A stretch of 34,710 bases of DNA from Ignavibacteria bacterium. Lineage in GTDB: Bacteria > Bacteroidota > Ignavibacteria > Ignavibacteriales > Ignavibacteriaceae. How positions within the stretch are numbered: the first letter of the stretch is position 1; each line of letters opens with the position of its first letter. The translations under genes were made by a program, and so were the position numbers. The notes under the pieces are model-generated. The model made no database searches. It was given only the letters and a program-made list of their open reading frames with translations, and had not been told where the DNA came from. The DNA is taken from contig JAJTBZ010000020.1 of the NCBI GenBank assembly GCA_021286645.1, forward strand, positions 1 to 34,710, written 5' to 3'. Below, one piece after another: positions 998-25,200 of this stretch.

Positions 998-3900
998 ATG
1001 ACGGCTGGTTCTCTTTGGAATTCAATGGAACATGTTCATCGAATTGCCCGGTTATGGTTAATACTGCCGGTTGCATTAGCTGTTCTTGCTCTAATAGGAT
1101 GGATAAGTAACCTAACGATATTGGCGCAGGGTTTTGTACACCTTAATCCAATGGCCCCATCTACCGCGGTATTACTTATTCTTGTTTCTTGCCAAATTTA
1201 CTTTCACTCACTTAATCATGAAGTCCACAAAAAATTATTTATTCGCCAATTAATAAATGCTGCTATTCTAACTCTAATAATTTTGCTCATTCCGGGTGTG
1301 TTGATTCAGAAGAATTATTCTCTGGAACAATTATTTGGCATTGGGATGACAGGTGCAGGTCGCCCGGCAGAGTTAATGGCCCCAATAACCCTATTCATTT
1401 TTTTCGTACACCAATTAACTGTTTACCTGGGTGTTCAGCCAAATTTTAAATTGAAAAACTTCGGAGCAACTATTGTATCCTTAGTGCTATTACTTATCCT
1501 TGGAATAAATTTAGGGTACGCATTCGATTTATCCACTCTCAGTTCCAAGGATTCAATTGCACCTTCTCTTAGTGCCTCCATTGCTTTTGTTGGCTTGTTA
1601 ATTTCGACTTTACTAATTTATTATCCGACCCAAAGCCCGGTTCAATTATTTATGGGGAATTCATTCAGAGCGGGTTTGTTAAGGAAAATATTACCAGGCA
1701 GTATTATACTTATGGTACTAACCGGCTGGGTAAGTGTAATAATTGCAACAAGGGCTACCGGGTACATAGTGCTCTTACCTGTAATTATTCTGCTTGCTGT
1801 CGTTTTATGGATTTTCTTTGCCAGCAGGGTTGCCAAAACTGAATCCGGATTATTCGAAAGCGAGATCATGCGCAGGGAGGCAACTGAAGCAGAATTAAAA
1901 TATAGTCATGAGCTCGATAGATCGTTATATTCAACCGGTGCAGTCGGAATTGCTGAAACACGTGCGGATGATGGAACTTTCTTAAAGATTAATAAAAAAT
2001 TTGCAGAAATTCTTGGATACCCCGAAGATGAATTGTTGCATAAGAGTTTTCGGGAGATAACGTATGTTGAAGATATCGATAAATCACGAGAAAGTTTGGA
2101 AAGACTTCTCAACGGAGTTACTACAGAAGAAATACTTTCCAAACGTTATATAAGGAAAGATGGTAGTCTTGTTTGGGTAGAATTGGATATTTCGTTATTG
2201 CACAAAGAGGAAAAACGAATTCAGTCTTTTATTGTAATAATTCGCGATTTAACAGGTGAAAAACAAATTGAAGATGAATTGCAAAGACGCATCGACCAGA
2301 ATGAAGAGCAGGCAGCAATCATAGAAAGTTCATCCTTGGCTTACCTGACCGGGACCCGAACAGGAAGAATAATAAATTGTAATCTGGCGTTTACAAAATT
2401 AACTGGTTTTACTATTAATGAAGTTCAATCTTGCAATTGGCTCTCTCAGCTTACGCCCGCTGAGTTTATTGGTATTGATAAAAATGCACTTGACCAACTG
2501 GACAGGTTCGGTGTGCCGGTAACCTATCGGAAAGAGTTAATTAAGAAAGACAGGTCGCATGTTCCGGTTGAAGTATTACTTCAAAAAATTTCTTCACGGG
2601 AAAGTGAAGTCTCTTACTTGAATATGCACTTTACTGATATCTCGCGCACAATTTTAGCAGAAGCTGAGATAATGCGGTTAAATAGAATTAACGATTTTAT
2701 TAGCAAGCTGAACCAACGAATAGCAAGAGTAGCTAATAGAAATGAGTTATTTCAGCAATTATGCGAAATAGCCGTTGAGTATGGAAAATTTAAATTGGCA
2801 TGGGTTGGGCTGGTTGATGATAAAAAGAATGAGATTATTCCACATACAACCAGAGGCAGTCATGTACGGCTTTTTTCATCGATTCATGCTTTCTCATTAG
2901 ATGATACTGAACTTGGTCAAACAACATCGGCAATTGCAATCCGGGATGATCGATGCGCAGTATGTAATGATTTTTCGGATATGACCCTGGTTACATCATT
3001 CCGTGAACAGGCTCTTGCAAATGGTCTGGCAGCTTCGATTTCTGTCCCGATCAAGGAGAATGGAAATATAATAGGAGTATTCACATTATATAGCACAGAG
3101 GCACACTACTTTGGTGAACATGAAGTGATGCTCATAGCTGCGGTAGCCTCAGATATCGACTTTAAATTAGATTCTCTTCACGCCGAAGAGCTCCGACAGA
3201 AGGCTGAACAAGAATTGTATGCAGCCCGTCAATTAGCTTCACGAATTTTTGAAACATCACCTGCGGGAATTATTTTTATTGACGAAAATGGTAGAATAAT
3301 TTTTGTTAATCGGCAAATTGAAGAAATGTTTAGACTACCGAAAGAAAAAATATTCTCGCTTTCGTTGGGCACTCCGGGACTGATATTATCTGAAGTTAAC
3401 GGTGCGATAGTTACAAAAGAGTATGTACGTAGGATATTGTTACCTGCAAAGGATAAGACACTTAACGAACTGAAGCTTTCTATTTTTCTCCCAAATGGAG
3501 GCAGTCTAATTGTTTCTGTAAACGTATCACTCACATTTTCTGATCATGGCGATTTCCTCGGTGCTGTATTAATGGTGAACGATATTTCCGAAAGTCTGAG
3601 TATGAAAGAGAAACTCTTCAAAAGAGAGGAACTCCTCAGTTTAACAGGACGTATGGCAAAAGTAGGAGGCTGGGAATATAACCCTGAAAACCGATCAGGC
3701 ACATGTACAGAGGAATGCTATGCAATTCATGGATTACCGACTCAAGATGTTTTCCATTTGGAGAAATTTCTCGAATTATATCAACAGGAACACCGCGAAC
3801 AGTTTACTAGTGCAATTAATCTGATTAAAGAAACACTAACCCCATTTTATCTGGAATTGCAGATAACAACTCCTAAAGGGGAATTGAAATGGATGTTTGT

Positions 3901-13448: not shown

Positions 13449-14222
13449 TCAAGTGTTGGAATTAATTTTCGGTACGAAGAAACTGGATTCACCCTCATGG
13501 ATTACTTGAAAATCTAGACCAAACATTTTTTTTAAGTTGACTTCATTGGTGATTATTTTCGATTCACCGAATATTGAATATTTGTCTGGACATAAAAACA
13601 AAACACTATCGAAAAAAGATGTTGCGAAATTTATATCGTGAATAGAAACAATGATCAATTTCTTCTTCGTAATGGATAACTCCTTTAGTAAGCGTAGAGT
13701 TTTAACCGTATTATAAATATCTAGAAAATTAGTTGGTTCATCCAATATTATAATCGGAGTCATTTGTGCTAATGCCATTGAGAGGATTGTTAATCTTCTC
13801 TCACCACTACTTAGGCTTGATATTGGACGATCCTGCAATTGATTCAGCCCAATATCATGCAGAATAGTTTCAACGATCTTAAAGTCGTTTTGTGAATATT
13901 TTCCGAGAAGAGACAGATATGGAGTTCTCCCTAATAAAGTCAGATCTTTAACACTAAAATCCAAGTACGTCGTATATTCTTGAGGTATAAATGAAATATT
14001 TCTGGCTAAAAGTTGTTTATGAAAACTTCGGATATTTATTGAATTAATTAGCACATCTCCAGTGAAGTTTTTATGATGCCCGGCAATAGTTCTTAAAAGA
14101 GTAGATTTACCTATTCCATTGGGACCAAAAACACCTAATAATCCCGAGTCCATCGAAAAATTGATATTTTCAAGGATTACTTTATTTTGAACAAAAAGAG
14201 ATAAATTCTGCACAGAAATCAT
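13449..14222 (-). CDS. ABC transporter ATP-binding protein (FecE/BtuD type)
   Basis: A 257-residue ATPase that powers the FecCD-type permease encoded just upstream. All ABC motifs are intact: Walker A GPNGIGKST (33-41), Q-loop Gln81 in SFIPQEY, signature LSSGE (137-141), Walker B IIILDEP (157-163) with catalytic Glu162, and switch His195 in VSIHD. The length fits the metal-chelate importer class (iron-siderophore, haem, cobalamin). It acts on the cytoplasmic face of the inner membrane. The ATG at 14222 lies 3 bp after the permease stop, so it is the last gene of a four-gene operon. The substrate cannot be decided from the ATPase. Confidence 0.93.
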   Translation of the reverse strand: MISVQNLSLFVQNKVILENINFSMDSGLLGVFGPNGIGKSTLLRTIAGHHKNFTGDVLINSINIRSFHKQLLARNISFIPQEYTTYLDFSVKDLTLLGRTPYLSLLGKYSQNDFKIVETILHDIGLNQLQDRPISSLSSGERRLTILSMALAQMTPIIILDEPTNFLDIYNTVKTLRLLKELSITKKKLIIVSIHDINFATSFFDSVLFLCPDKYSIFGESKIITNEVNLKKMFGLDFQVIHEGESSFFVPKINSNT

Positions 14223-14225
14223 CGA

Positions 14226-15236
14226 CTATGCCACTCGTATTTTGATTAAGACAAAAATAAAAAATGGAAGACCAATAAGCGCCGCAACAATCCCTACGGG
14301 AATTTCAAAAGGAAAGCTATACCGAGCAATTAAATCAATGCACTGCAAAAAAATAGCCCCTGAAACGAGTGAGCAGGGGACGACGAAGGTATTATTAGAT
14401 CCACCAAGAAATCGAACAATATGAGGGATGATTAACCCTACCCACCCTATTGGTCCACATACTGCAGTAACCGAGCTGGTTATTATGGAGGTTAGGATTA
14501 TAAATGTAAATATCTGCCTTTTATAATCAAGTCCTAACGAGGTCGTTTCTACCTCGCCAAGAGAGAGCACGTTCAGTTTCCAGCTTTTTAGAATAAATAA
14601 TGTACCGCAAAGCAAAAGAATGGGTGCAATAAAAAAAACATTTTCCCAGTTTGCGTTTGCAAAACTTCCAAATGTCCAGAATAGAATAGTCTGTATTTTC
14701 TGATCATCGGTAAAATATTGTATTAATGAGACAGAAGCGCTAAAAAACGAAGAAATGATAATTCCTGTTAGCACCATAATTATTGTATCGCGCCCGGGGA
14801 ACAGTTTTGAAGCTATTAGAACAATGGTTACCGATAGCGATCCAAACAAGAACGCAGATAATTGTAACAAAAATGGATTGTATACCTGAAATAATAGTAT
14901 TACAAGCGAAACGCCGAATGCAGATCCAGACGATATCCCTAGAATGTATGGGCTAACAAGTGGGTTACGGAATATAGATTGAAGAACAGTCCCGGAGACT
15001 GCTAAACCAGCGCCGACTAATGATACTAAGAGTATTCTGGGCATTCGGATTTGGCTTAAAATCATCTCTATTTCAGCCTTAATCTGAAGTCCTGAATTGG
15101 TGTTTACATGAGAGATGCCCCAAGCAGCGATTTGCATTGGTGATATTTGGTATTTGCCTAACATTAATGACATTATGCTTATTGATATTAGCAGTCCCAA
15201 CATTAACAAAATAAAAAGATATTGCCTCTTACTCAA
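14226..15236 (-). CDS. FecCD/BtuC-type ABC permease
   Basis: A 336-residue inner-membrane permease with about nine to ten helices. Family hallmarks are seen: RMPRILLVSLVGAGLAVSG near the N-terminus, FRNPLVSPYILGISSGSAFG, and GLIIPHIVRFLGG, the conserved G-h-h-x-PH-h-x-R loop that contacts the ATPase. It forms the channel of an importer for iron-siderophore, haem or cobalamin. The frame begins with TTG at 15236 (TTG AGT AAG AGG), preceded by AAAGAGA about 6 nt away. This TTG gives a basic SKR start before the first helix, which supports it over internal ATGs. The start overlaps the stop of the binding-protein gene by 8 bp. Confidence 0.92.
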   Translation of the reverse strand: MSKRQYLFILLMLGLLISISIMSLMLGKYQISPMQIAAWGISHVNTNSGLQIKAEIEMILSQIRMPRILLVSLVGAGLAVSGTVLQSIFRNPLVSPYILGISSGSAFGVSLVILLFQVYNPFLLQLSAFLFGSLSVTIVLIASKLFPGRDTIIMVLTGIIISSFFSASVSLIQYFTDDQKIQTILFWTFGSFANANWENVFFIAPILLLCGTLFILKSWKLNVLSLGEVETTSLGLDYKRQIFTFIILTSIITSSVTAVCGPIGWVGLIIPHIVRFLGGSNNTFVVPCSLVSGAIFLQCIDLIARYSFPFEIPVGIVAALIGLPFFIFVLIKIRVA

Positions 15237-16206
15237 TATAATTCTCTTTTATTATATTAATAAAGTGTTCATACTCATCGTGAATAGAGATTTGTTTATA
15301 GAGTGCAGGATGTAACCAAATTGCTTTTTCGAGTATACTAAATACAGTTTCTATTCGATATTCAGTCCAACCAGGATGCTCCTTATAAATCCTTTTATTC
15401 TTCACCGCGTTGATCAACTGCCATTTCGGATTTGAATAAATATCCTCCGGATTAAGAGTTGCACGATCCCTAATAATAATTACTTCTGGATTATAATTAC
15501 AAATGTCTTCTAATGAAAGTTGTATACTTGTAACATCATCTCCCATAGCTTTAGTTATTAGTCTGCCTCCTGCGGCTTCAACTATTTCACTCATTACATT
15601 GCCCCCAATAGTTGTCAGTTCGTTGGTTCGAATATAATAGACCGATGGTTTATTTACTACAGGTATTCTGGTTGAGATGGATTGTATTTTTTTTAGCAAT
15701 GAGTCACAAAAATTATAGATCCGGAGCCCCTGTTTCTCTCTCTTTAGAATTTTTGAATATAGCTTTACTTCATTATAAATATCTGTTACAGTTTTCGGAT
15801 ATGTTGCTACTGCTAAAAGATTAAAACCGGTTAGCTTATCAATCACTTGTCTATCCGCTCCAGTAAATACAATATCGGGGTGTAAAAGAATAACTTTTTC
15901 AAAATCAATCTTACCTTGCCCAACTTGGGGCAAGGTAAGAATATTTGGGAAATATGTACTTAAGAATAAAGAACTGGAATTCTGAATTTTCCCAATACCA
16001 ATAATTTTGTCTTTTTCGCCAAGCGCACAAATGATTTCTGCCTGAACATAATACAGCGGTAAGATTCGGCCAATTGTGTCAGGAATAATAACTGTTCGAT
16101 TAAAATAATCCGAAATTGCCAGCCCTTTATTACTTTCTTTCTGCGAGTTGCATCCAGTAAAAAATACGATAAGAACTAAAAGGCCGGTTACTAATAGGGC
16201 TCTCAT
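15229..16206 (-). CDS. ABC importer substrate-binding lipoprotein (BtuF/FecB type)
   Basis: A 325-residue class III periplasmic binding protein, lipidated at Cys19 (lipobox FFTGC). The N-lobe has the family pattern SDYFNRTVIIPDTIGRILPL, EIICALGEKDKIIGIG and DFEKVILLHPDIVFTG. A long linking helix follows, then a C-lobe with YNPEVIIIRD and KRIYKEHPGWTEYRIETVFS. It captures the ligand after passage through the outer membrane and hands it to the permease. This pattern covers iron-siderophore, haem and cobalamin binders; nothing specific assigns one. ATGA overlap with the receptor gene upstream and an 8-bp overlap with the permease downstream show tight coupling. An unusual 13-bp perfect hairpin sits inside the coding sequence at 15909-15940. 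Confidence 0.92.
   Translation of the reverse strand: MRALLVTGLLVLIVFFTGCNSQKESNKGLAISDYFNRTVIIPDTIGRILPLYYVQAEIICALGEKDKIIGIGKIQNSSSLFLSTYFPNILTLPQVGQGKIDFEKVILLHPDIVFTGADRQVIDKLTGFNLLAVATYPKTVTDIYNEVKLYSKILKREKQGLRIYNFCDSLLKKIQSISTRIPVVNKPSVYYIRTNELTTIGGNVMSEIVEAAGGRLITKAMGDDVTSIQLSLEDICNYNPEVIIIRDRATLNPEDIYSNPKWQLINAVKNKRIYKEHPGWTEYRIETVFSILEKAIWLHPALYKQISIHDEYEHFINIIKENYIE
15909..15940. repeat. Perfect 13-bp inverted repeat inside the binding-protein gene
   Basis: TCTTACCTTGCCC (15909-15921) and GGGCAAGGTAAGA (15928-15940) are perfect inverse copies separated by 6 nt. The stem falls about 270-300 nt into the binding-protein gene, in codons for the LPQVGQGKIDF part of the N-lobe. It could form an RNA hairpin affecting translation or mRNA processing within the operon, or be chance. 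Confidence 0.5.
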
Positions 16207-18167
16207 TTTGAGTCCATTGAGAAAGAGTAAGATACTCCAAAACGAATTTCTCTGCCTGGCATTGGCTGGTCAAATGAGATTTTATAATCTTTATCAAGAA
16301 GATTTGTTGTTTTTTCCCAAATTTTTAAGTTCTTAGTTGCAGAAACCGAAATACCCAGATCGAATGTTATGTAATCAGGTATACTATACCAAATACTCTG
16401 ATTGTCGTAATAACTTTTTGAAAAATAAATACTGCTAATATTTAACTCGATGAATGAGAATGGAAGGTATGAGACAAATACATGCAGTTGATGATCTGGC
16501 CTGTAAGCAATGTAATCTGATAAACGGGATTCGGATGTGTTCTTAGTACTTGAATAAGAATAGCTAATAAGCCCAGATAATTTTTGTGAGCTCTTAAATT
16601 TGATCTGTAATTCTCCACCAAATACATTCGCTGATTGTAAGTTAATTACTTTATTTGTGGTATCAGAATCTTTAATTTGAGTAATGAGATCTTTTACGAA
16701 GTTATTATATAAATCGAATTCAACGGTAACCATATTATCAAACAAACTTGTTGAGATCCCCATTTCTACATTCTGATCTGATTCGGATTTTAAATTGGGA
16801 TTTGCAGTATATCCAATTAGTACATCTCCAAATAAATCCCGCATTCGTGGGAAAATTGTATTTCTGCTATATCCGGAGTGGATAGAAAAATCATTAGCAA
16901 AGGGTTTGTAACTGGCTGAAATTTGATAATTCATTTCTGACAAACTATTCCTTGTAATCTGGACATTTTTTGAAGTATAGGTGGGGTCCATAAAATTGTA
17001 TGAGACGCCTGATCTGAGATTTAATTGAGGACAGATTTGGGCATTATATTCAACTGCCGAAATTATAGTGTTTGAAGTGGTGGTCGCTTTGGTGAACCAA
17101 ATTTGATCATGAAAATCTCGTTTATAATCGAATGATACATAGATACTGTTATTTTTAAGAAACTCGTAAGAAGCAATTTCTCTTATTCCAAATGTCTTAT
17201 CATCCCAATAACTGATTTTTTTTATAGTAGTATATGATTTGTCTTTATATTCATTTAATGTATCGTTTAATACTGTATAGTATAAATTGCTTTCCAAGTG
17301 TAAACCGTTTTCAAAAATGTATAGATCATGAATTCCGAAAAGTGAATTTACCCAATAATCCATTCGACGAAATCTGGGTGTGGCAATCGACGGAGGATAG
17401 CCAAATCTACTTTTATTAAATACACCAGTAAAATTGATTAAGTGTTTTTCATTAAACAAATAAGTTATGTTCGCTAATAATTCTAATGATTCTTTATCAC
17501 TATTGTTGCGATTCTTATCGGGTTGAGCCGATATAGTACTAAAATTATCCGAAAGAGGAAAGTTGAGTTGTTTTGAATATGTGAATGCAGATTGATAAAA
17601 CAAAACATTTGAGATTTTCCCCGCGAGAAATGTATTATAATACTGTTTGCTATTTTCTCCCAAAAAAGTATTTACTTCTGCCTCAAGTTGTTTCCCTGAA
17701 TGTTGTTTACTATCGATTCTAATTACATTACCTGACGAATTGCTCCCGAATAATAGTGAGGCAGTACCTTTTTCAATTGATATGTCAGAGTTCGTAAATG
17801 AAAATGCATCTGTATTTAGCCTCCCTTCTGTATTCGATCTGAGCGGAATACCGTTGTAATATATATTCACTCTGTTTTGTTCGAAACCTCTTACGTTAAT
17901 ATATTGTCCTCCTATTCCGTCAGGTATAGAGTAGACTCCGGGTAAGAAAGTTAATGCTTCGGTTAATTTGTCGGGTTTAATTTTGGAAAGCAATTCAGAA
18001 TTGATAGTATTATTACTTGCATTCTCATTATTCTGTTTCACCATTTTATAATCAGTCACGACTATTGGTGGCAATTCTTTTGTGAATAAAGAATCTGGAT
18101 CTTTTTGTGCAAATACTGTAAGAGTTATACTTAAAGTGATTAGGAGTACTAGTATTCTTGTTGCCAT
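16203..18167 (-). CDS. TonB-dependent outer-membrane receptor
   Basis: A 654-residue receptor with signal peptide (MATRILVLLITLSITLTVFA). The plug domain spans about residues 40-150, with SKIKPDKLTEALTFLPGVYS, YINVRGFEQNRVNIYYNGIP and DISIEKGTASLLFGSNSSGN. The remainder is a beta-barrel rich in alternating aromatic strands. No carboxypeptidase-like N-terminal extension or SusC-type signature is present, so it resembles siderophore, haem or vitamin B12 receptors rather than glycan receptors. It would bring its ligand across the outer membrane using TonB-ExbBD encoded elsewhere. AAGGG lies 8 nt before the ATG. It is the first gene of the operon and overlaps the binding-protein gene by 4 bp. I saw no cobalamin riboswitch in the 260 bp upstream. 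Confidence 0.93.
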   Translation of the reverse strand: MATRILVLLITLSITLTVFAQKDPDSLFTKELPPIVVTDYKMVKQNNENASNNTINSELLSKIKPDKLTEALTFLPGVYSIPDGIGGQYINVRGFEQNRVNIYYNGIPLRSNTEGRLNTDAFSFTNSDISIEKGTASLLFGSNSSGNVIRIDSKQHSGKQLEAEVNTFLGENSKQYYNTFLAGKISNVLFYQSAFTYSKQLNFPLSDNFSTISAQPDKNRNNSDKESLELLANITYLFNEKHLINFTGVFNKSRFGYPPSIATPRFRRMDYWVNSLFGIHDLYIFENGLHLESNLYYTVLNDTLNEYKDKSYTTIKKISYWDDKTFGIREIASYEFLKNNSIYVSFDYKRDFHDQIWFTKATTTSNTIISAVEYNAQICPQLNLRSGVSYNFMDPTYTSKNVQITRNSLSEMNYQISASYKPFANDFSIHSGYSRNTIFPRMRDLFGDVLIGYTANPNLKSESDQNVEMGISTSLFDNMVTVEFDLYNNFVKDLITQIKDSDTTNKVINLQSANVFGGELQIKFKSSQKLSGLISYSYSSTKNTSESRLSDYIAYRPDHQLHVFVSYLPFSFIELNISSIYFSKSYYDNQSIWYSIPDYITFDLGISVSATKNLKIWEKTTNLLDKDYKISFDQPMPGREIRFGVSYSFSMDSK

Positions 18168-18430: not shown

Positions 18431-20479
18431 TTACCAGATTCGAACAATGTTTTCTTCACTGTTACGCATCTTTGAGCCTGGTTTTATACTGAAAGCGTCA
18501 AAGAATTCCGGAAGGTTGCGCAACGGGCAGGTAACACGAGCTTTGCCGGGTGAGTGAACATCGGTCTTTAATTGTAATTTTGCAGCCTGTGGGCGTTGGC
18601 TTTCGGCCCAGACCTGGCCCCAACTTAAGAAAAAGCGTTGCATTGGGGTAAATCCATCTATCAAAGCCGCCTCTTTGTATTGGGCTGTTTTCTTAAAGGC
18701 ATTTAATGCAACAGTTAAACCACCAAGGTCGCCTATGTTTTCGCCAAGAGTAAGCGCGCCATTAACTTTAAATGTATCAATTACTACAAAATTATTAAAT
18801 TGTTCAACTAACTTTTCAGCGCGCTCATTGAATCGTTTTGCATCATCCGCAGTCCACCAATCTGTTAAGTTACCATTTGCATCATACTGCCGTCCCTGAT
18901 CGTCAAAGCCATGGGAAATTTCATGACCTATTACGGCACCCATAGCACCATAGTTTACAGCATCATCGGCTTCCGGATTAAAAAATGGAGGTTGCAAAAT
19001 TGCTGCCGGGAAAACTATTTCATTCCGATTCGGTGAGTAGTAGGCATTAACGGTTTGGGGACTCATTTCCCATTCATTTTTATCGACAGCTTTGCCGATT
19101 TTCGAAAAATTATCCTTTGAAGCCCAAATACTTGCACGCGAACAATTTTTGTAATAGGAGTCGTTTTCGATATTTAAGTCGCTAAAATCCTTCCATGCAT
19201 CGGGATATCCAATTTTTACATTGAATTTTTTCAATTTTACCAATGCAGCCTTTTTGGTCTCTTCACCCATCCAAGGGACCTGTTGAATGCGATCACCCAT
19301 CGAAATTAACAGATTATCGACAATAGCTTTAGCGCGTGCTTTAGATTCCGGTGGAAAATATTTTTTTACATAAATCTGGCCTAACATTTCGCCAAGATTG
19401 CCATTAATAACATCCAGAACACGGCGCCAGCGGGGACGCATAATTTTTTGACCGGATAAAAATTTGCTATTAAATTCAAAACTTTCAGCCACAAATGGCG
19501 AGCTTAACGCAAATGATGCTTCTTTAACGGTATGCCATTTGAGATAAATTTTCCAGTCATCCAATGATACGGAATTCATCATTTTCCCAACCTCAGCGAG
19601 GAACTGCGGTTGCATAACCACAAAATATTCCGGAGCAGGAATTTGCAGTTGTTTAAAATATACATCCCAGTCAAACCCGGCGCATAGAGTTTTTAATTCT
19701 GCATAGCTTACTTTGTTGTACGTTTTAACCGGATCGCGGTTCTCAACCATTGTCCATGAAGCCTTTGCCAATTGCATTTCGATCGCCATTACTTTTTCGG
19801 CGGCTTTTGTGGCAGATGCAGCGTCATAACCAATTAATGTAAAAACATTGGCAACATGTTGCACGTATTTTGTTCGAATTTCTTTTGATCTTTCATCATC
19901 TGCGGTATAGTATTCAACATCAGGTAATCCTAAACCGTTTTGATAAAAATGAGCAGCCATTTTATCACTTGCCTTTGAATCAATCGATGCAAAGAACGCA
20001 AAAAATACTCCTGAGCCTTCTAAATGCATATCAGCAGTTAAACGTATTAAAGATTTTACATCTTTTAATTCATCAATTTGTTTCAAAACAGGAACGATTG
20101 GTTGATATCCCTCTTGTTCAATTTTGGCTGAATCCATACCTGTGCGGTAGAAATCGCCGATTTTCTGCTCGGCTGATCCCTTTTTGGCATCTGTTTGCTT
20201 ATATAAATCTTCCAAAATTGTGCGAACGGATTTATTGTTTTGTTCGCGTAAAAAATTAAAACTTCCCCAACGAGTTTGGTCATCCGGTATCGGGTGGCTT
20301 TTTACCCATCCGCCAGTTGCATATTCAAAAAAATCATCTGCAGGACTAACCGCAGTGTTAAGGTTGTTTATATCCAAGCCTTTACCTTTTGTTTCAGGCT
20401 TTTTATCACCGGCATAGGAAAAGCCGGATACGATGAGCAATGATAAAACAGACAGCAATAACAGTCTGGATTTTAACAT
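18431..20479 (-). CDS. M13 family zinc metallopeptidase (neprilysin/PepO-like)
   Basis: A 682-residue secreted peptidase with a signal peptide ending near SGFSYAG. It has the full M13 active site: HEISH (His519, Glu520, His523) followed by GFDDQGRQYD, third zinc ligand Glu580 in ENIGDLGG with Asp584, and the substrate-binding motif NAYYSP upstream. The C-terminal region (RVTCPLRNLPEFFDAFSI, ending near NIVRIW) matches the family end. M13 enzymes cleave oligopeptides up to a few kDa outside the cytoplasm. The size is normal for bacterial PepO-type enzymes. GGAGAAGAAGT directly before the ATG is the ribosome site. It stands alone, with a hairpin on its 3' side and a 306-bp intergenic region upstream. 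Confidence 0.95.
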   Translation of the reverse strand: MLKSRLLLLSVLSLLIVSGFSYAGDKKPETKGKGLDINNLNTAVSPADDFFEYATGGWVKSHPIPDDQTRWGSFNFLREQNNKSVRTILEDLYKQTDAKKGSAEQKIGDFYRTGMDSAKIEQEGYQPIVPVLKQIDELKDVKSLIRLTADMHLEGSGVFFAFFASIDSKASDKMAAHFYQNGLGLPDVEYYTADDERSKEIRTKYVQHVANVFTLIGYDAASATKAAEKVMAIEMQLAKASWTMVENRDPVKTYNKVSYAELKTLCAGFDWDVYFKQLQIPAPEYFVVMQPQFLAEVGKMMNSVSLDDWKIYLKWHTVKEASFALSSPFVAESFEFNSKFLSGQKIMRPRWRRVLDVINGNLGEMLGQIYVKKYFPPESKARAKAIVDNLLISMGDRIQQVPWMGEETKKAALVKLKKFNVKIGYPDAWKDFSDLNIENDSYYKNCSRASIWASKDNFSKIGKAVDKNEWEMSPQTVNAYYSPNRNEIVFPAAILQPPFFNPEADDAVNYGAMGAVIGHEISHGFDDQGRQYDANGNLTDWWTADDAKRFNERAEKLVEQFNNFVVIDTFKVNGALTLGENIGDLGGLTVALNAFKKTAQYKEAALIDGFTPMQRFFLSWGQVWAESQRPQAAKLQLKTDVHSPGKARVTCPLRNLPEFFDAFSIKPGSKMRNSEENIVRIW

Positions 20480-21157: not shown

Positions 21158-21265
21158 GTTAATTCTATTGGTAGTAATGAGGCAAATAGGCGGGTATTGT
21201 ACCGAAAAATATAACTATCCCCTTAAGTAGGGAGGAAAAGTCATAAATATCGTTATTTGTTGGGA

Positions 21266-21296
21266 TTGAGCAGACTCTTTGTTTGGTGTATTTTTG
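21266..21296 (+). promoter_or_regulatory. Possible Bacteroidota-type promoter of the porin-feo operon
   Basis: TATTTTTG at 21289-21296 matches the Bacteroidota -7 box TAnnTTTG exactly, and TTG at 21266-21268 lies 20 bp before it, the expected -33 spacing. It is about 30 bp before the porin ATG. A short dyad AAATA-4-TATTT at 21245-21258 could bind a regulator. Fur-type control of Feo would be expected, but no standard Fur box is seen. Confidence 0.3.
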
Positions 21297-21325: not shown

Positions 21326-22474
21326 ATGCAAAGTATAAAAAATAGATTGTTCATAGTATTTAGTGTTCTTATAATAGCTCAGGTTTCATTGGAAGCACAA
21401 ACAGAATTGAATCGTTCTTTACCTATTGATTTCCACTCCTCGTATACTACAGATGGATTTGTAAATCTTTCTGGCGGGTCGCGCGTTGGTAGTGCTTTTG
21501 TTGGATTGTTGGCGTTCCAGGCAAGCACTGAAACTGAAAATTTAGGCCTGTGGAAGAATGGGCATGTGAAAACTACCGTTATGAATACGCATGGTGGCAG
21601 ACCGAGTGCCACTTTTTCTGGCGATTTTCAGGGACTCTGCAATATTGAATCCGATGAACGTACTTTTTTATATGAACTGTGGTATCGACAAGAATTTTCC
21701 GGCAGTCGCTTTACCGTTGGGGTCTTGGATATTGGGGCGGAATTTATTACGAGTTCAACTGCGTCTTCTTTTCTCAATAGTTCATTTGGTATTCATTCTA
21801 CTTTATCAGAAAACTTTACATCGCCCGTGTTTCCACATACGGCAGCAGGAATGACCGGTAATTTTCAGATCCTTAAAAACTGTGCTCTTGCAGTTGGCAT
21901 TTTTGACGGACACCCCGACGACTATAGTGCGCATTCACATAATCTGCATTGGACTATAAATTCTGATGATGGGGCTTTATATCTTGCCGAAATTCAACTT
22001 TCTGATAGTACTTTTACACAGTTCTCAACTAATCTTAAATTGGGTTTCTACGAGCATGCACATGGCGATGATTATGAATTATATGGTGATGCCCAAACTA
22101 TTAGCAGAGGCATATATCTAACTTTAGATAAACATTTCACATCCTCTTTTCTCGGAGGTGGACTTGATGCCTTTTTATTAGGAAGTTATAGCCTGCAAAC
22201 GGCGGGTATTAATTATTGGTTTTTTGGTACGGGCGTGAAGAAAAATTCGGTATTTACTTCAAATAAAGATGCTGCCGGAATTGCAATTGCTATTGCCGGG
22301 CTGCAAAGAACCTCACATGGTAATGAAACTGTTATTGAATTATTTTACGAATATCGGTGTCTGGAGTCATTCAGCATCAAACCGGATATTCAGTATATCA
22401 TTCATCCTTCAGGTAATAGTAATTTAATGAATAATGCTCTCGCTGCAACAATCCGCTGTATGGTGGCGTTATGA
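21326..22474 (+). CDS. OprB-family outer-membrane porin linked to feoAB
   Basis: A 382-residue exported beta-barrel protein with a signal peptide ending near LEAQ. It resembles the carbohydrate-selective porin OprB family: GDFQGLCNIESDERTFLYEL, FTVGVLDIGAEFITS, SFLNSSFGIHSTLS, and a C-terminal ETVIELFYEYRC with SIKPDIQYIIHPSGN and a final hydrophobic strand. Despite the family name, homologues are not always sugar porins. Two segments are rich in His and Asp: FDGHPDDYSAHSHNLHW (193-209) and FYEHAHGDDYELYGD (241-255). Since the gene ends in an ATGA overlap with feoAB, I infer that it admits ferrous iron or another divalent metal to the periplasm. The ATG lacks a strong ribosome site. Confidence 0.8.
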   Translation: MQSIKNRLFIVFSVLIIAQVSLEAQTELNRSLPIDFHSSYTTDGFVNLSGGSRVGSAFVGLLAFQASTETENLGLWKNGHVKTTVMNTHGGRPSATFSGDFQGLCNIESDERTFLYELWYRQEFSGSRFTVGVLDIGAEFITSSTASSFLNSSFGIHSTLSENFTSPVFPHTAAGMTGNFQILKNCALAVGIFDGHPDDYSAHSHNLHWTINSDDGALYLAEIQLSDSTFTQFSTNLKLGFYEHAHGDDYELYGDAQTISRGIYLTLDKHFTSSFLGGGLDAFLLGSYSLQTAGINYWFFGTGVKKNSVFTSNKDAAGIAIAIAGLQRTSHGNETVIELFYEYRCLESFSIKPDIQYIIHPSGNSNLMNNALAATIRCMVAL

Positions 22475-24975
22475 AAAAAGGTTTGGATATGCACCAGGTT
22501 AAAACAAAAACCATACTCGCTCAACTTCGGGATAACGAAGAAGGAACCATTTCTGCCGTTCGCGGCAGCAGCGCTTTCAGGAAAAGAATTGCCGAGATGG
22601 GTTTTGTTAAAGGGAAAACGGTGAAGGTAATTAAAAATGCTCCTTTGCAAGATCCCGTTGAATACGAGATAATGGGGTATAATGTTTCACTCCGTCGAAG
22701 TGAAGCAGGGCTGGTCGAGGTTTACCGCGGTGATAGCCACATTGATAACGGGGCAAGTTATTTTGGCATCCTTGATGGCCCAACTGAGAGTCATGTATTT
22801 CAACATGATACCAAAACAATTTCTGTTGCTTTAGTTGGTAACCCCAATTGCGGTAAAACCACTTTGTTTAATTTCGCTTCCGGATTGCATGAACGAGTCG
22901 GCAATTATGGTGGAGTAACAGTTGATGCAAAAGAAGCTGAGGTAAGGGTAGGCGATTATCGTCTAATTTTAACGGATCTACCCGGTACATATTCCGTCAC
23001 GGAATATACTCCCGAGGAATTATTTGTACGAATGCATCTGATGAATAACCGCCCGGATGTTGTTATTAATGTTATCGATTCGTCGAATCTCGAAAGAAAC
23101 CTTTTTCTGACTACTCAACTGATTGATATGAATCAGAAGATGGTAATTGCATTAAATATGTTCGATGAATTAACCAGCCAGGGAGCTGGTTTAGACTATC
23201 TTTCGTTGGGGAAAATGCTTGGCATTCCTATGATTCCAACTGTCGGGTCTAAAGGGCAGGGCCTTGATACCTTATTTGAAAAGGTAATTGCTGTTTTTGA
23301 AGGGCGTGAGCAAACCGTCAGGTCAATTAATATTAATTATGGCACTGTACTGGAGAATTGTATTGATGGACTTACTTCGGCAATCGCAGCGGTTGCCATG
23401 GGGAAAGTACAAATACCTTCGCGCTATTTGGCAATTAAACTGTTGGAAGGGGATACGCCTTCAATAGATTTATTGAAGCAAAAGGGCGAATGGCAGAAAA
23501 TTGAAGCACTTAGGGATAAACTTGTTCTCGAAATAGAAAAGGAATATCGCGATAAACCTGAAAATGTTTTTACCGATGCTAGATACGGGTTTATTGCCGG
23601 TGCGCTCGAAGAAACATTTCAAGCCCCTGAGCATGTGAAAAAAAGTAAATCGCTCTCGATAGACTCAGTTATTACCCATAAATACCTGGGATTTCCATTA
23701 TTCGGGCTAATTATGTGGTTTATTTTCCAATTCACATTTTCGCTTGGCAAATTCCCTATGGAGTGGATTCAATCGCTTGTTGACCATATTCATTCATGGG
23801 TAAGTGCTGAAATGCCAATTGGTCCATTGCGGGATCTGATTTCAGATGGCGTAATAAATGGGGTTGGCAGCGTACTGGTGTTCCTGCCAAATATTCTTCT
23901 TCTCTTCTTCTTTATCTCTGTACTTGAAGATACAGGCTACATGGCCAGGGCAGCGTTCATAATGGATAAAATTATGCATAAAATCGGGCTGCACGGTAAA
24001 TCTTTTATTCCGCTATTGATGGGGTTCGGATGTAATGTGCCCGCGGTTATGTCAACCCGTACCTTAGAGAACCGTAAGGATAGAATATTAACTATGCTGA
24101 TAATTCCCTTCATGTCCTGCAGTGCGCGTCTGCCGGTTTATGTCCTGATCATTTCTGCAACTTTTACCAGAAATCAGGGAGGGATTCTCTTCTTAATGTA
24201 TATCATTGGTATTATCGTGGCTGTTTTTTCTGCTATGATAATGAAAAAAATAATGTTTCGGAATGAAGAAGCCCCGTTTGTTATGGAACTTCCGCCCTAC
24301 AGAATTCCGACTTTAAGGAATACGATTCGGCACATGTGGTTCAAAGCAGCGCAGTATCTTCGTAAAATGGGAAACGTTATACTGGTGGCTTCGGTAATAA
24401 TTTGGGCACTGGGGTATTTCCCACGCACCACAAATTTTTCAATGAACTATGATTCCGCAATTAGCACTTTAGCGGGAAATAACCAAATTACTGCTACAGA
24501 AAAGGAAAAGAAACTATCCGAACTCGAATTAGCGAAAGAGTCAGAAAGACAAGCTCATAGTTATATAGGACGGGTTGGACATTTCATTGAACCGGTTATC
24601 GCTCCCCTGGGCTTCGATTGGAAAATTGGAATGAGCATTATTACCGGTTTGGCTGCAAAAGAAATTGTTGTCAGTACAATGGCAGTACTGTACCAGGCAG
24701 ATGAAAAATCCGACGATGGCTCTGTTAGTTTGAAGGATAAATTAGCTCAGCAGGTATACACTCACGGACCACAGAAAGGTGAAAAAATCTTTACTCCTCT
24801 GGTTGCCATGAGCCTTATGATTTTCGTACTGATTTATTTCCCTTGTATAGCCGTAATTGCTGCTATACGGAAAGAAGCTAATCTGCGCTGGGCAATATTT
24901 ACCATGGTTTATACAACTGCTATTGCCTGGGTACTTGCATTTATTACATATCAGGGAGGTAGATTTCTACTATGA
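22471..24975 (+). CDS. feoB: FeoA-FeoB fusion ferrous iron transporter
   Basis: An 834-residue fusion of FeoA and FeoB. Residues about 10-90 are the SH3-like FeoA domain (AEMGFVKGKTVKVIKNAP, then YEIMGYNVSLRRSEAGLVEV). The G domain has G1 GNPNCGKT (123-130), G3 DLPGTY and G4 NMFD (229-232). A membrane region of about eight to nine helices follows, with the Gate motifs FLPNILLLFFFISVLEDTGY, GFGCNVPAVMSTRT and SCSARLPVY. FeoB moves Fe2+ across the inner membrane in a GTP-dependent way; FeoA modulates it. FeoA is usually a separate gene of about 75-85 residues, so here it is fixed to FeoB. The ATG at 22471 overlaps the porin stop; an ATG at 22489, preceded by AAAAAAGG, is also possible. It overlaps the next gene by 4 bp. 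Confidence 0.96.
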   Translation: MKKGLDMHQVKTKTILAQLRDNEEGTISAVRGSSAFRKRIAEMGFVKGKTVKVIKNAPLQDPVEYEIMGYNVSLRRSEAGLVEVYRGDSHIDNGASYFGILDGPTESHVFQHDTKTISVALVGNPNCGKTTLFNFASGLHERVGNYGGVTVDAKEAEVRVGDYRLILTDLPGTYSVTEYTPEELFVRMHLMNNRPDVVINVIDSSNLERNLFLTTQLIDMNQKMVIALNMFDELTSQGAGLDYLSLGKMLGIPMIPTVGSKGQGLDTLFEKVIAVFEGREQTVRSININYGTVLENCIDGLTSAIAAVAMGKVQIPSRYLAIKLLEGDTPSIDLLKQKGEWQKIEALRDKLVLEIEKEYRDKPENVFTDARYGFIAGALEETFQAPEHVKKSKSLSIDSVITHKYLGFPLFGLIMWFIFQFTFSLGKFPMEWIQSLVDHIHSWVSAEMPIGPLRDLISDGVINGVGSVLVFLPNILLLFFFISVLEDTGYMARAAFIMDKIMHKIGLHGKSFIPLLMGFGCNVPAVMSTRTLENRKDRILTMLIIPFMSCSARLPVYVLIISATFTRNQGGILFLMYIIGIIVAVFSAMIMKKIMFRNEEAPFVMELPPYRIPTLRNTIRHMWFKAAQYLRKMGNVILVASVIIWALGYFPRTTNFSMNYDSAISTLAGNNQITATEKEKKLSELELAKESERQAHSYIGRVGHFIEPVIAPLGFDWKIGMSIITGLAAKEIVVSTMAVLYQADEKSDDGSVSLKDKLAQQVYTHGPQKGEKIFTPLVAMSLMIFVLIYFPCIAVIAAIRKEANLRWAIFTMVYTTAIAWVLAFITYQGGRFLL

Positions 24976-25148
24976 GTTTTTTAAATACACCCGGAATACA
25001 AGAAGTTATTGTTTACACCAGTATTGTGCTTGCGGCATTCTCTGTGATTCGGCCCATATTTCGTAAAAATAGTGTCACATCACCTGCCGGTGGTTGTGAT
25101 GGAAAATGTGGTAACTGCCCACTTAAAAAGGATAGCTCCTGCCATTAA
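24972..25148 (+). CDS. FeoB-associated Cys-rich small membrane protein
   Basis: A 58-residue protein whose ATG overlaps the feoAB stop (ATGA). Residues about 11-30 (EVIVYTSIVLAAFSVIRPIF) form one membrane helix. A short linker leads to a C-terminal cysteine cluster GGCDGKCGNCP with Cys42, Cys46, Cys49 and Cys57 followed by a final His58. Size, topology and position match the FeoB-associated Cys-rich family (PF12669), found directly after feoB in many bacteria. The cluster probably binds iron or helps assemble or regulate FeoB; the family function is not settled. The ORF is short but is supported by the overlap, the helix and the Cys motif together. Confidence 0.85.
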   Translation: MSFLNTPGIQEVIVYTSIVLAAFSVIRPIFRKNSVTSPAGGCDGKCGNCPLKKDSSCH

Positions 25149-25154
25149 TAAATA

Positions 25155-25200
25155 TTGGTAAACAAATAATCGGGCAATTTCAGGATTATTTGTTTACCAA
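25155..25200 (+). terminator. Perfect 17-bp inverted repeat ending the feo operon
   Basis: TTGGTAAACAAATAATC (25155-25171) is inversely repeated without mismatch at 25184-25200, with a 12-nt loop. It begins 6 bp after the stop of the Cys-rich gene. It is AT-rich and no T-tract follows (GTATAAGTAG), so it may be a terminator, an RNA-stabilising 3' stem or a protein-binding site. Confidence 0.55.

Follow-up and report, generated by a model that had tools for sequence, protein, structure and literature searches.

By which route does ferrous iron cross the outer membrane before FeoB can carry it over the inner one? The question is raised by a 34,710-nt stretch of DNA from an Ignavibacteria bacterium (assembly GCA_021286645.1, contig JAJTBZ010000020.1; hereafter the window), in which genes for an OprB-family porin, a FeoA-FeoB fusion, and a 58-residue Cys-rich membrane protein follow one another on the forward strand. 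An earlier sequence-only reading had named all three, and each was found where that reading had placed it, with the Pfam and TIGR00437 cut-offs passed. The locus is probably an Fe(II)-uptake operon of an Ignavibacteriales bacterium, equipped with an outer-membrane entry channel of its own, a promoter bearing dyad sites, and a likely regulator of the CdhR type. The computed evidence comprises the gene order and how widely it is conserved, the fold of the porin, the dyads and their enrichment, the dyad sites that precede siderophore receptors, and an intact set of diiron ligands in a hemerythrin-like protein.

Porin and feoAB as conserved neighbours

When named genomes were searched with the porin alignment, 53 loci were recovered, 47 of which (L102-L148; here and below, L marks a locus, G a genome, and C a contig) score above 150 bits against the window porin and constitute one Bacteroidota family, the other six being more distant OprB loci. 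A FeoA-FeoB fusion lies directly 3′ of the porin in 25 of the 47 family loci, all from separate genomes, and in none of the six distant ones; it is also present two genes after the porin in L111 and directly upstream of it in L108. The sequence-only reading had proposed a search for the same gene order in related genomes as a check, and the order was thus recovered; because more than half of the family shows it in separate genomes, the comparison indicates that the linkage of porin and feoAB is not due to chance. The order spans two classes of Bacteroidota—Ignavibacteria and many Bacteroidales lineages—and, among the sampled relatives, is found in G001 (same genus), G046 (another family of the order), and G312. 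On the porin tree, the feo-linkage label requires 11 changes compared with 17.8 for shuffled labels, with none of 500 shuffles as low, and the window porin occupies a long branch (1.91) as sister to the porin of the same genus (89% support).

In the fusion protein, FeoA (PF04023), FeoB_N, Gate, FeoB_C, and FeoB_Cyto each exceed their Pfam cut-offs, and the protein scores 587.4 bits against the FeoB equivalog TIGR00437 (cut-off 315.65). It is the sole close FeoB in the 3.7-Mb genome, the other match being a 62-residue GTPase stretch (E 3e-4). The Cys-rich protein scores 28.6 bits against FeoB_associated (PF12669; gathering score 27), and homologues lie downstream of feoAB in L068 and L070, with a weak match in L120. 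The hairpin behind the operon has a folding energy of -20.5 kcal/mol (z -6.1), a stability equalled by none of 200 shuffles. No Rfam matches were found.

The porin itself scores 121.6 bits against OprB (PF04966; gathering score 22.9), and the second OprB gene of the genome, on contig C98, is distant from feo. An AlphaFold2 model built from 51 sequences is a 16-stranded barrel (mean pLDDT 90.1), whose best PDB match is OprB of Pseudomonas putida (4gey; TM-score 0.81, E 9.5e-23, 16% identity). The predicted barrel settles the fold of the porin and does not decide its substrate. P. putida OprB and the window porin share the barrel and the Pfam family, but the latter has no sugar genes alongside. 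Two arguments for iron drawn from the porin alone were rejected: membership of the cyanobacterial iron uptake porin family por_somb (NF033921), against which the protein reaches 22.7 bits over 94 residues only (cut-off 100), and the charge of the pore, as most of the conserved acidic residues (D100, E117, D135, E334, and E338) occur in generic OprB too and are therefore uninformative on iron. Separately, His at positions 112, 244, and 246 is common in the porin family and absent from three generic OprB rows; the window porin has Arg at 112, and its residues 244 and 246 (about 22055-22063), at strand ends predicted to face outward, are candidate metal contacts.

The junctions between the genes bear on the original argument for metal entry, which had been built on translational coupling through two ATGA overlaps. 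Both strings are present in the sequence, and the second, between feoAB and the Cys-rich gene, is sound, with GGGAGG visible by eye shortly 5′ of the ATG. The first requires a start codon that relatives do not support, the ATG at 22471, by which six residues (MKKGLD) are placed ahead of a methionine at 22489. Their FeoAB proteins begin at the methionine equivalent to 22489, and AAAAAAGG is situated 8-15 nt 5′ of that ATG; starting there leaves a 14-nt gap after the porin stop, and the corresponding gaps in relatives measure 9-13 nt (L113, L104, and L131), without overlap. FeoA likely starts at 22489 and not at 22471. Because relatives start at the equivalent position and have short gaps, the overlap at the first junction is probably an artefact of the called start codon and the coupling there one of close spacing, so that metal entry is not to be argued chiefly from ATGA overlaps.

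Tandem dyads at the promoter and beyond

Two 18-bp dyads and a promoter of the Bacteroidota type precede the porin gene (Table 1). In relatives, tandem ATCCC-N8-GGGAT dyads are likewise followed by ATTG-N20-TAnnTTT, 5′ of the porin or, where the porin is missing, of feoAB, and the 32-bp spacing of the dyads recurs in G001, G046, G312, G250, G045, and G306. The composite GGRATTG-N20-TAnnTTTG has a single occurrence in the whole 3.7-Mb genome, at this promoter. Across the family, a dyad matching at least 9 of 10 scored positions is present in 18 of 47 porin promoters, compared with 1 of 314 control promoters of the same loci (p 7e-17). As the motif had been defined in part from three of these 18 positive loci, the unbiased count is 15 of 44. 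Positions 6-10 of the dyad, outside the scoring, read YAYWW. The dyad resembles the 7-2-7 sites of NarL-type proteins. A published description of it was not found in the open-licence literature; its tandem arrangement at a spacing of exactly 32 bp, shared with relatives, and its strong enrichment at promoters of this porin family are new here. Control by Fur was rejected as an explanation of the promoter: between positions 20000 and 30000 of the window, no Fur-like site occurs within three mismatches of TGATAATNATTATCA, the only form of Fur box scanned, and the window as a whole holds 8 sites against 7.2 expected.

Table 1. Coordinates of the operon, its promoter elements, and its candidate transcription end in the window
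Feature	Position	Strand	Basis or remark
Dyad operator 1, ATCCCCTTAAGTAGGGAG (ATCCC-N8-GGGAT, one mismatch)	21217..21234	+	Position conserved in relatives; porin promoters enriched for the motif
Dyad operator 2, ATCGTTATTTGTTGGGAT (two mismatches); spacing to dyad 1 exactly 32 bp	21249..21266	+	
Bacteroidota-type promoter, GGGATTG-N20-TATTTTTG, overlapping dyad 2	21262..21296	+	
OprB-family outer-membrane porin, 382 aa, N-terminal signal helix predicted	21326..22474	+	Pfam PF04966
FeoA-FeoB fusion, 834 aa as called (828 aa from likely start 22489)	22471..24975	+	Pfam, TIGR00437
FeoB-associated Cys-rich membrane protein, 58 aa	24972..25148	+	PF12669; ATGA overlap with feoAB
Hairpin with 17-bp stem, directly 3′ of the operon; candidate transcription end, without T-run	25155..25200	+	

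Sites elsewhere outline a putative regulon. In Ignavibacteria genomes, exact matches to the plain dyad pattern mostly fall within coding sequence or belong to GC-rich hairpins (ATCCCGC...GCGGGAT); this noise called for a stricter pattern, ATCCCNANWWNNNGGGAT, which gave 22 forward matches, compared with one for the reversed control, in 15 Bacteroidota genomes. In the 20 dyad-site regions that were read, intergenic sites sit about 50-120 bp 5′ of their genes. These include TonB siderophore receptors in L196 and L202 (above the TIGR01783 cut-off), with a similar gene at L198; an operon of an outer-membrane protein and a flavin mononucleotide (FMN)-binding protein in L195 (2581-4353), L197, L201, and L210; a di-haem oxidoreductase in L204; and, by reading, a purB-like gene in L208. 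In L203, a DUF6686 protein with a Cys pair (2773-3141) lies behind a hemerythrin/LuxR gene pair and a dyad. Several further sites inside coding sequence are likely chance matches. The pair of outer-membrane and FMN-binding proteins also occurs in porin loci: in L103 (4111-5947), it follows tandem dyads with the 32-bp spacing and separates the LuxR gene from the porin, and in L111 (2687-4525), it separates the porin from feoAB. Because the intergenic sites precede siderophore receptors, this operon, and other genes, and because the operon's two genes recur in porin loci, the placement of the dyad indicates that it marks mainly iron-uptake genes.

Three side observations belong to the same set of loci and to the window. 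The outer-membrane protein encoded with the FMN-binding protein has no Pfam match, and the two may form an iron-reduction or uptake unit. In L062, a small protein resembling that of the DUF6686 family (CTNC motif) precedes the feo promoter. Within the window, on the reverse strand at 13449-18167 and 3 kb from the operon, a TonB-dependent receptor (Plug domain scanned) is followed by three genes whose sequences suggest a periplasmic binding protein, a permease of the FecCD type, and an ATP-binding cassette (ABC) ATPase; this cluster, whose promoter has no dyad, is a separate candidate for uptake of a metal complex, haem, or cobalamin.

The hemerythrin/LuxR pair as candidate regulator

In about 21 of the 47 family loci, genes for a hemerythrin-domain protein (PF01814) and for a regulator of the GerE/LuxR type lie directly upstream, in many relatives ahead of the operon, and the pair also stands beside porins that are not next to feo (L103, L109, L110, L116, L122, L123, L144, and L148). 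In L122, L138, and L144, one open reading frame matches both proteins, as Pfam confirms for L122, pointing to a single sensor-regulator unit. In the present genome, the hemerythrin gene followed by the LuxR-type gene is found on contig C56 (G000:C56:30335-31649, equivalent to L101:8333-9650), among neighbours without an evident iron link. Hemerythrin homologues were detected in 14 of the 17 genomes tested, including every tested genome with a perfect dyad at the porin promoter, and the porins of the three genomes without one (G008, G325, and G326) are not feo-linked.

The hemerythrin protein keeps a full set of diiron ligands—H91, H135, E139, H175, H219, and E223, that is, four His and two Glu with two HxxxE motifs—and these are invariant in eight sequences. 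The six ligands stand in the same order as those of the diiron protein YtfE (H84, H129, E133, H160, H204, and E208; PMC9268430). The protein gives a weak profile match to the YtfE structure (E 0.011) and 58.7 bits against the RIC equivalog TIGR03652; as this is far under the cut-off of 204.7, it is described as YtfE-like and not filed as RIC. In the receiver of the LuxR-type protein, most rows read INP (by eye) at the position expected for the phosphorylatable Asp, and control of the regulator by a kinase thus appears unlikely.

By gene layout, two-gene as well as fused, the pair can be likened to the CdhR/hemerythrin operons PG1236-37 and BT_0519-20 (PMC10434189). According to the passages of that source covered here, the operon is induced by iron starvation about 7-fold in Porphyromonas gingivalis and 16- to 20-fold in Bacteroides thetaiotaomicron, hemerythrin and CdhR are fused in Prevotella intermedia, and CdhR regulates hmuYR; the same passages report no operator and no link to feoAB or a porin. 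In the open-licence literature, no paper was found that joins the hemerythrin/LuxR pair to feoAB, to the porin, or to the dyad.

Proposed route, known counterparts, and competing explanations

In the proposed mechanism, the porin would be a Bacteroidota counterpart of FeoP. By diffusion through it, Fe(II), perhaps along with further small cations or small chelates, would reach the periplasm, from where FeoB, fused to FeoA, would carry Fe(II) over the inner membrane with the assistance of the Cys-rich protein. The operon would be transcribed from the promoter with the two dyads, and its likely regulator consists of the hemerythrin-like diiron protein and a DNA-binding protein of the NarL/LuxR type, whose receiver lacks the usual phosphorylatable Asp, both encoded on contig C56. 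We infer that Fe(II) is the substrate, that iron is the signal, and that the regulator binds the dyads. The porin most likely passes iron through the outer membrane because its order with FeoB is conserved and because its putative control site also precedes iron genes in relatives.

Such a route has precedents. In the deltaproteobacterium Geobacter sulfurreducens, an OprB porin ahead of feo genes (porin-feoA-feoA-feoB2) with a Fur box was predicted in 2004 to be iron-regulated and was proposed as an Fe(II) porin (PMC545781); in Acidithiobacillus, an OprB-family gene directly before feo on one strand, in the predicted operon feoPABC and again with a Fur box, was named FeoP in 2008 and proposed for Fe(II) entry (PMC2631029). 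The present locus differs from both in its fused feoAB and its other candidate regulator, and from feoPABC, with its separate feoA, feoB, and feoC, also in the Cys-rich protein that comes next, the NarL-like dyads, and a promoter in which no Fur-like site was found. Cyanobacterial OprB-like porins are described as iron-selective in the part of PMC9723758 covered, which cites Qiu 2021; the window porin shares an OprB-like domain and the suggested iron role with the Slr1908 type of these, although it falls far below the por_somb cut-off. These cases do not support the premise of the sequence-only reading that OprB porins ordinarily go with sugars. The outer- to inner-membrane route of that reading is plausible; ideas of this kind had been proposed before, and the new part is a conserved Bacteroidota version with a common operator and a candidate diiron regulator.

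Several observations weigh against an iron porin under dyad control. The porin is missing from the same operon in G250 and G045, which belong to the genus of G312, and the close relatives G043 and G306 keep feoAB without it; of the porin, G225 retains only a C-terminal remnant, which lies between feoAB and the promoter with its dyads (L062, G225:C61), a natural porin loss. Judged from these genomes, porin and feo need not go together, close relatives having kept feo despite loss of the porin, and the word "dedicated" in the original claim is not supported. The window dyads are imperfect, with one and two mismatches, and as the window holds 18 two-mismatch matches against 12 expected, they are not conspicuous alone. 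The hemerythrin/LuxR pair is not adjacent to the operon in this genome. The modelled fold is that of the sugar porin OprB 4gey, and in G008 and G033, of the same family as the present bacterium, a porin homologue without a feoAB link has the starch synthase gene glgA close by (L023 and L022; the gene was named from its sequence start alone).

The last two points, together with the loss of the porin from loci that retain feoAB, would suit a general small-solute or sugar channel that shares its promoter with feoAB for a common anoxic or low-iron need. Such a channel is unlikely: hemerythrin/LuxR genes accompany the porin even away from feo, with the dyad as well in L122, L123, and L144, and a Pfam scan of 20 genes neighbouring non-feo porins gave matches that include cation efflux and ZnuA, with neither sugar transport nor glycoside hydrolase genes among them. 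The glgA-linked porins form a deep branch of their own on the porin tree and may have undergone a change of substrate; neither a FeoB (E 1e-60) nor a hemerythrin gene (1e-6) was found in G008, the one of the two genomes that was searched. The condition that the sequence-only reading had accepted as evidence against itself, a porin beside sugar genes and not feoB, is partly present, in two genomes on that separate branch.

Cation efflux genes beside the porin in L109 and L110, and a ZnuA/ABC cluster beside it in L129, would also fit a channel for another transition metal (Mn or Zn) or for divalent cations broadly, with FeoB as part of a general metal supply, and one P. gingivalis FeoB is described as a manganese transporter in the passages covered of PMC10434189. 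FeoAB is by far the commonest partner, however, and the common operator precedes siderophore receptors, so that this alternative is quite improbable. Were the porin a chance or lineage-specific neighbour caught between promoter and feoAB without a functional tie, its variable presence within one genus (in G312 and not in G250 or G045) would be expected; the same arrangement has nevertheless been retained independently across two classes, with the linkage label clustered on the tree, and a chance neighbour is therefore very improbable. The metal role first claimed for the porin thus draws on the conserved order, the siderophore-receptor operator, and the cation-efflux and ZnuA neighbours, and no longer on the overlap.

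More tentatively, the operon may belong to a phylum-wide Bacteroidota iron regulon, in which a hemerythrin diiron sensor and its NarL-type partner (the CdhR pair) would bind ATCCCYAYWWAYRGGGAT dyads and an outer-membrane Fe(II) porin, one of the main members, would feed FeoAB. If so, the outer- and inner-membrane steps of Fe(II) uptake would be one controlled unit, independent of Fur. The locus supplies specific candidates for a channel, an operator, and a diiron regulator, each of them testable, and the same operon is present in cultivable species, such as Mangrovibacterium lignilyticum and Breznakibacter xylanolyticus.

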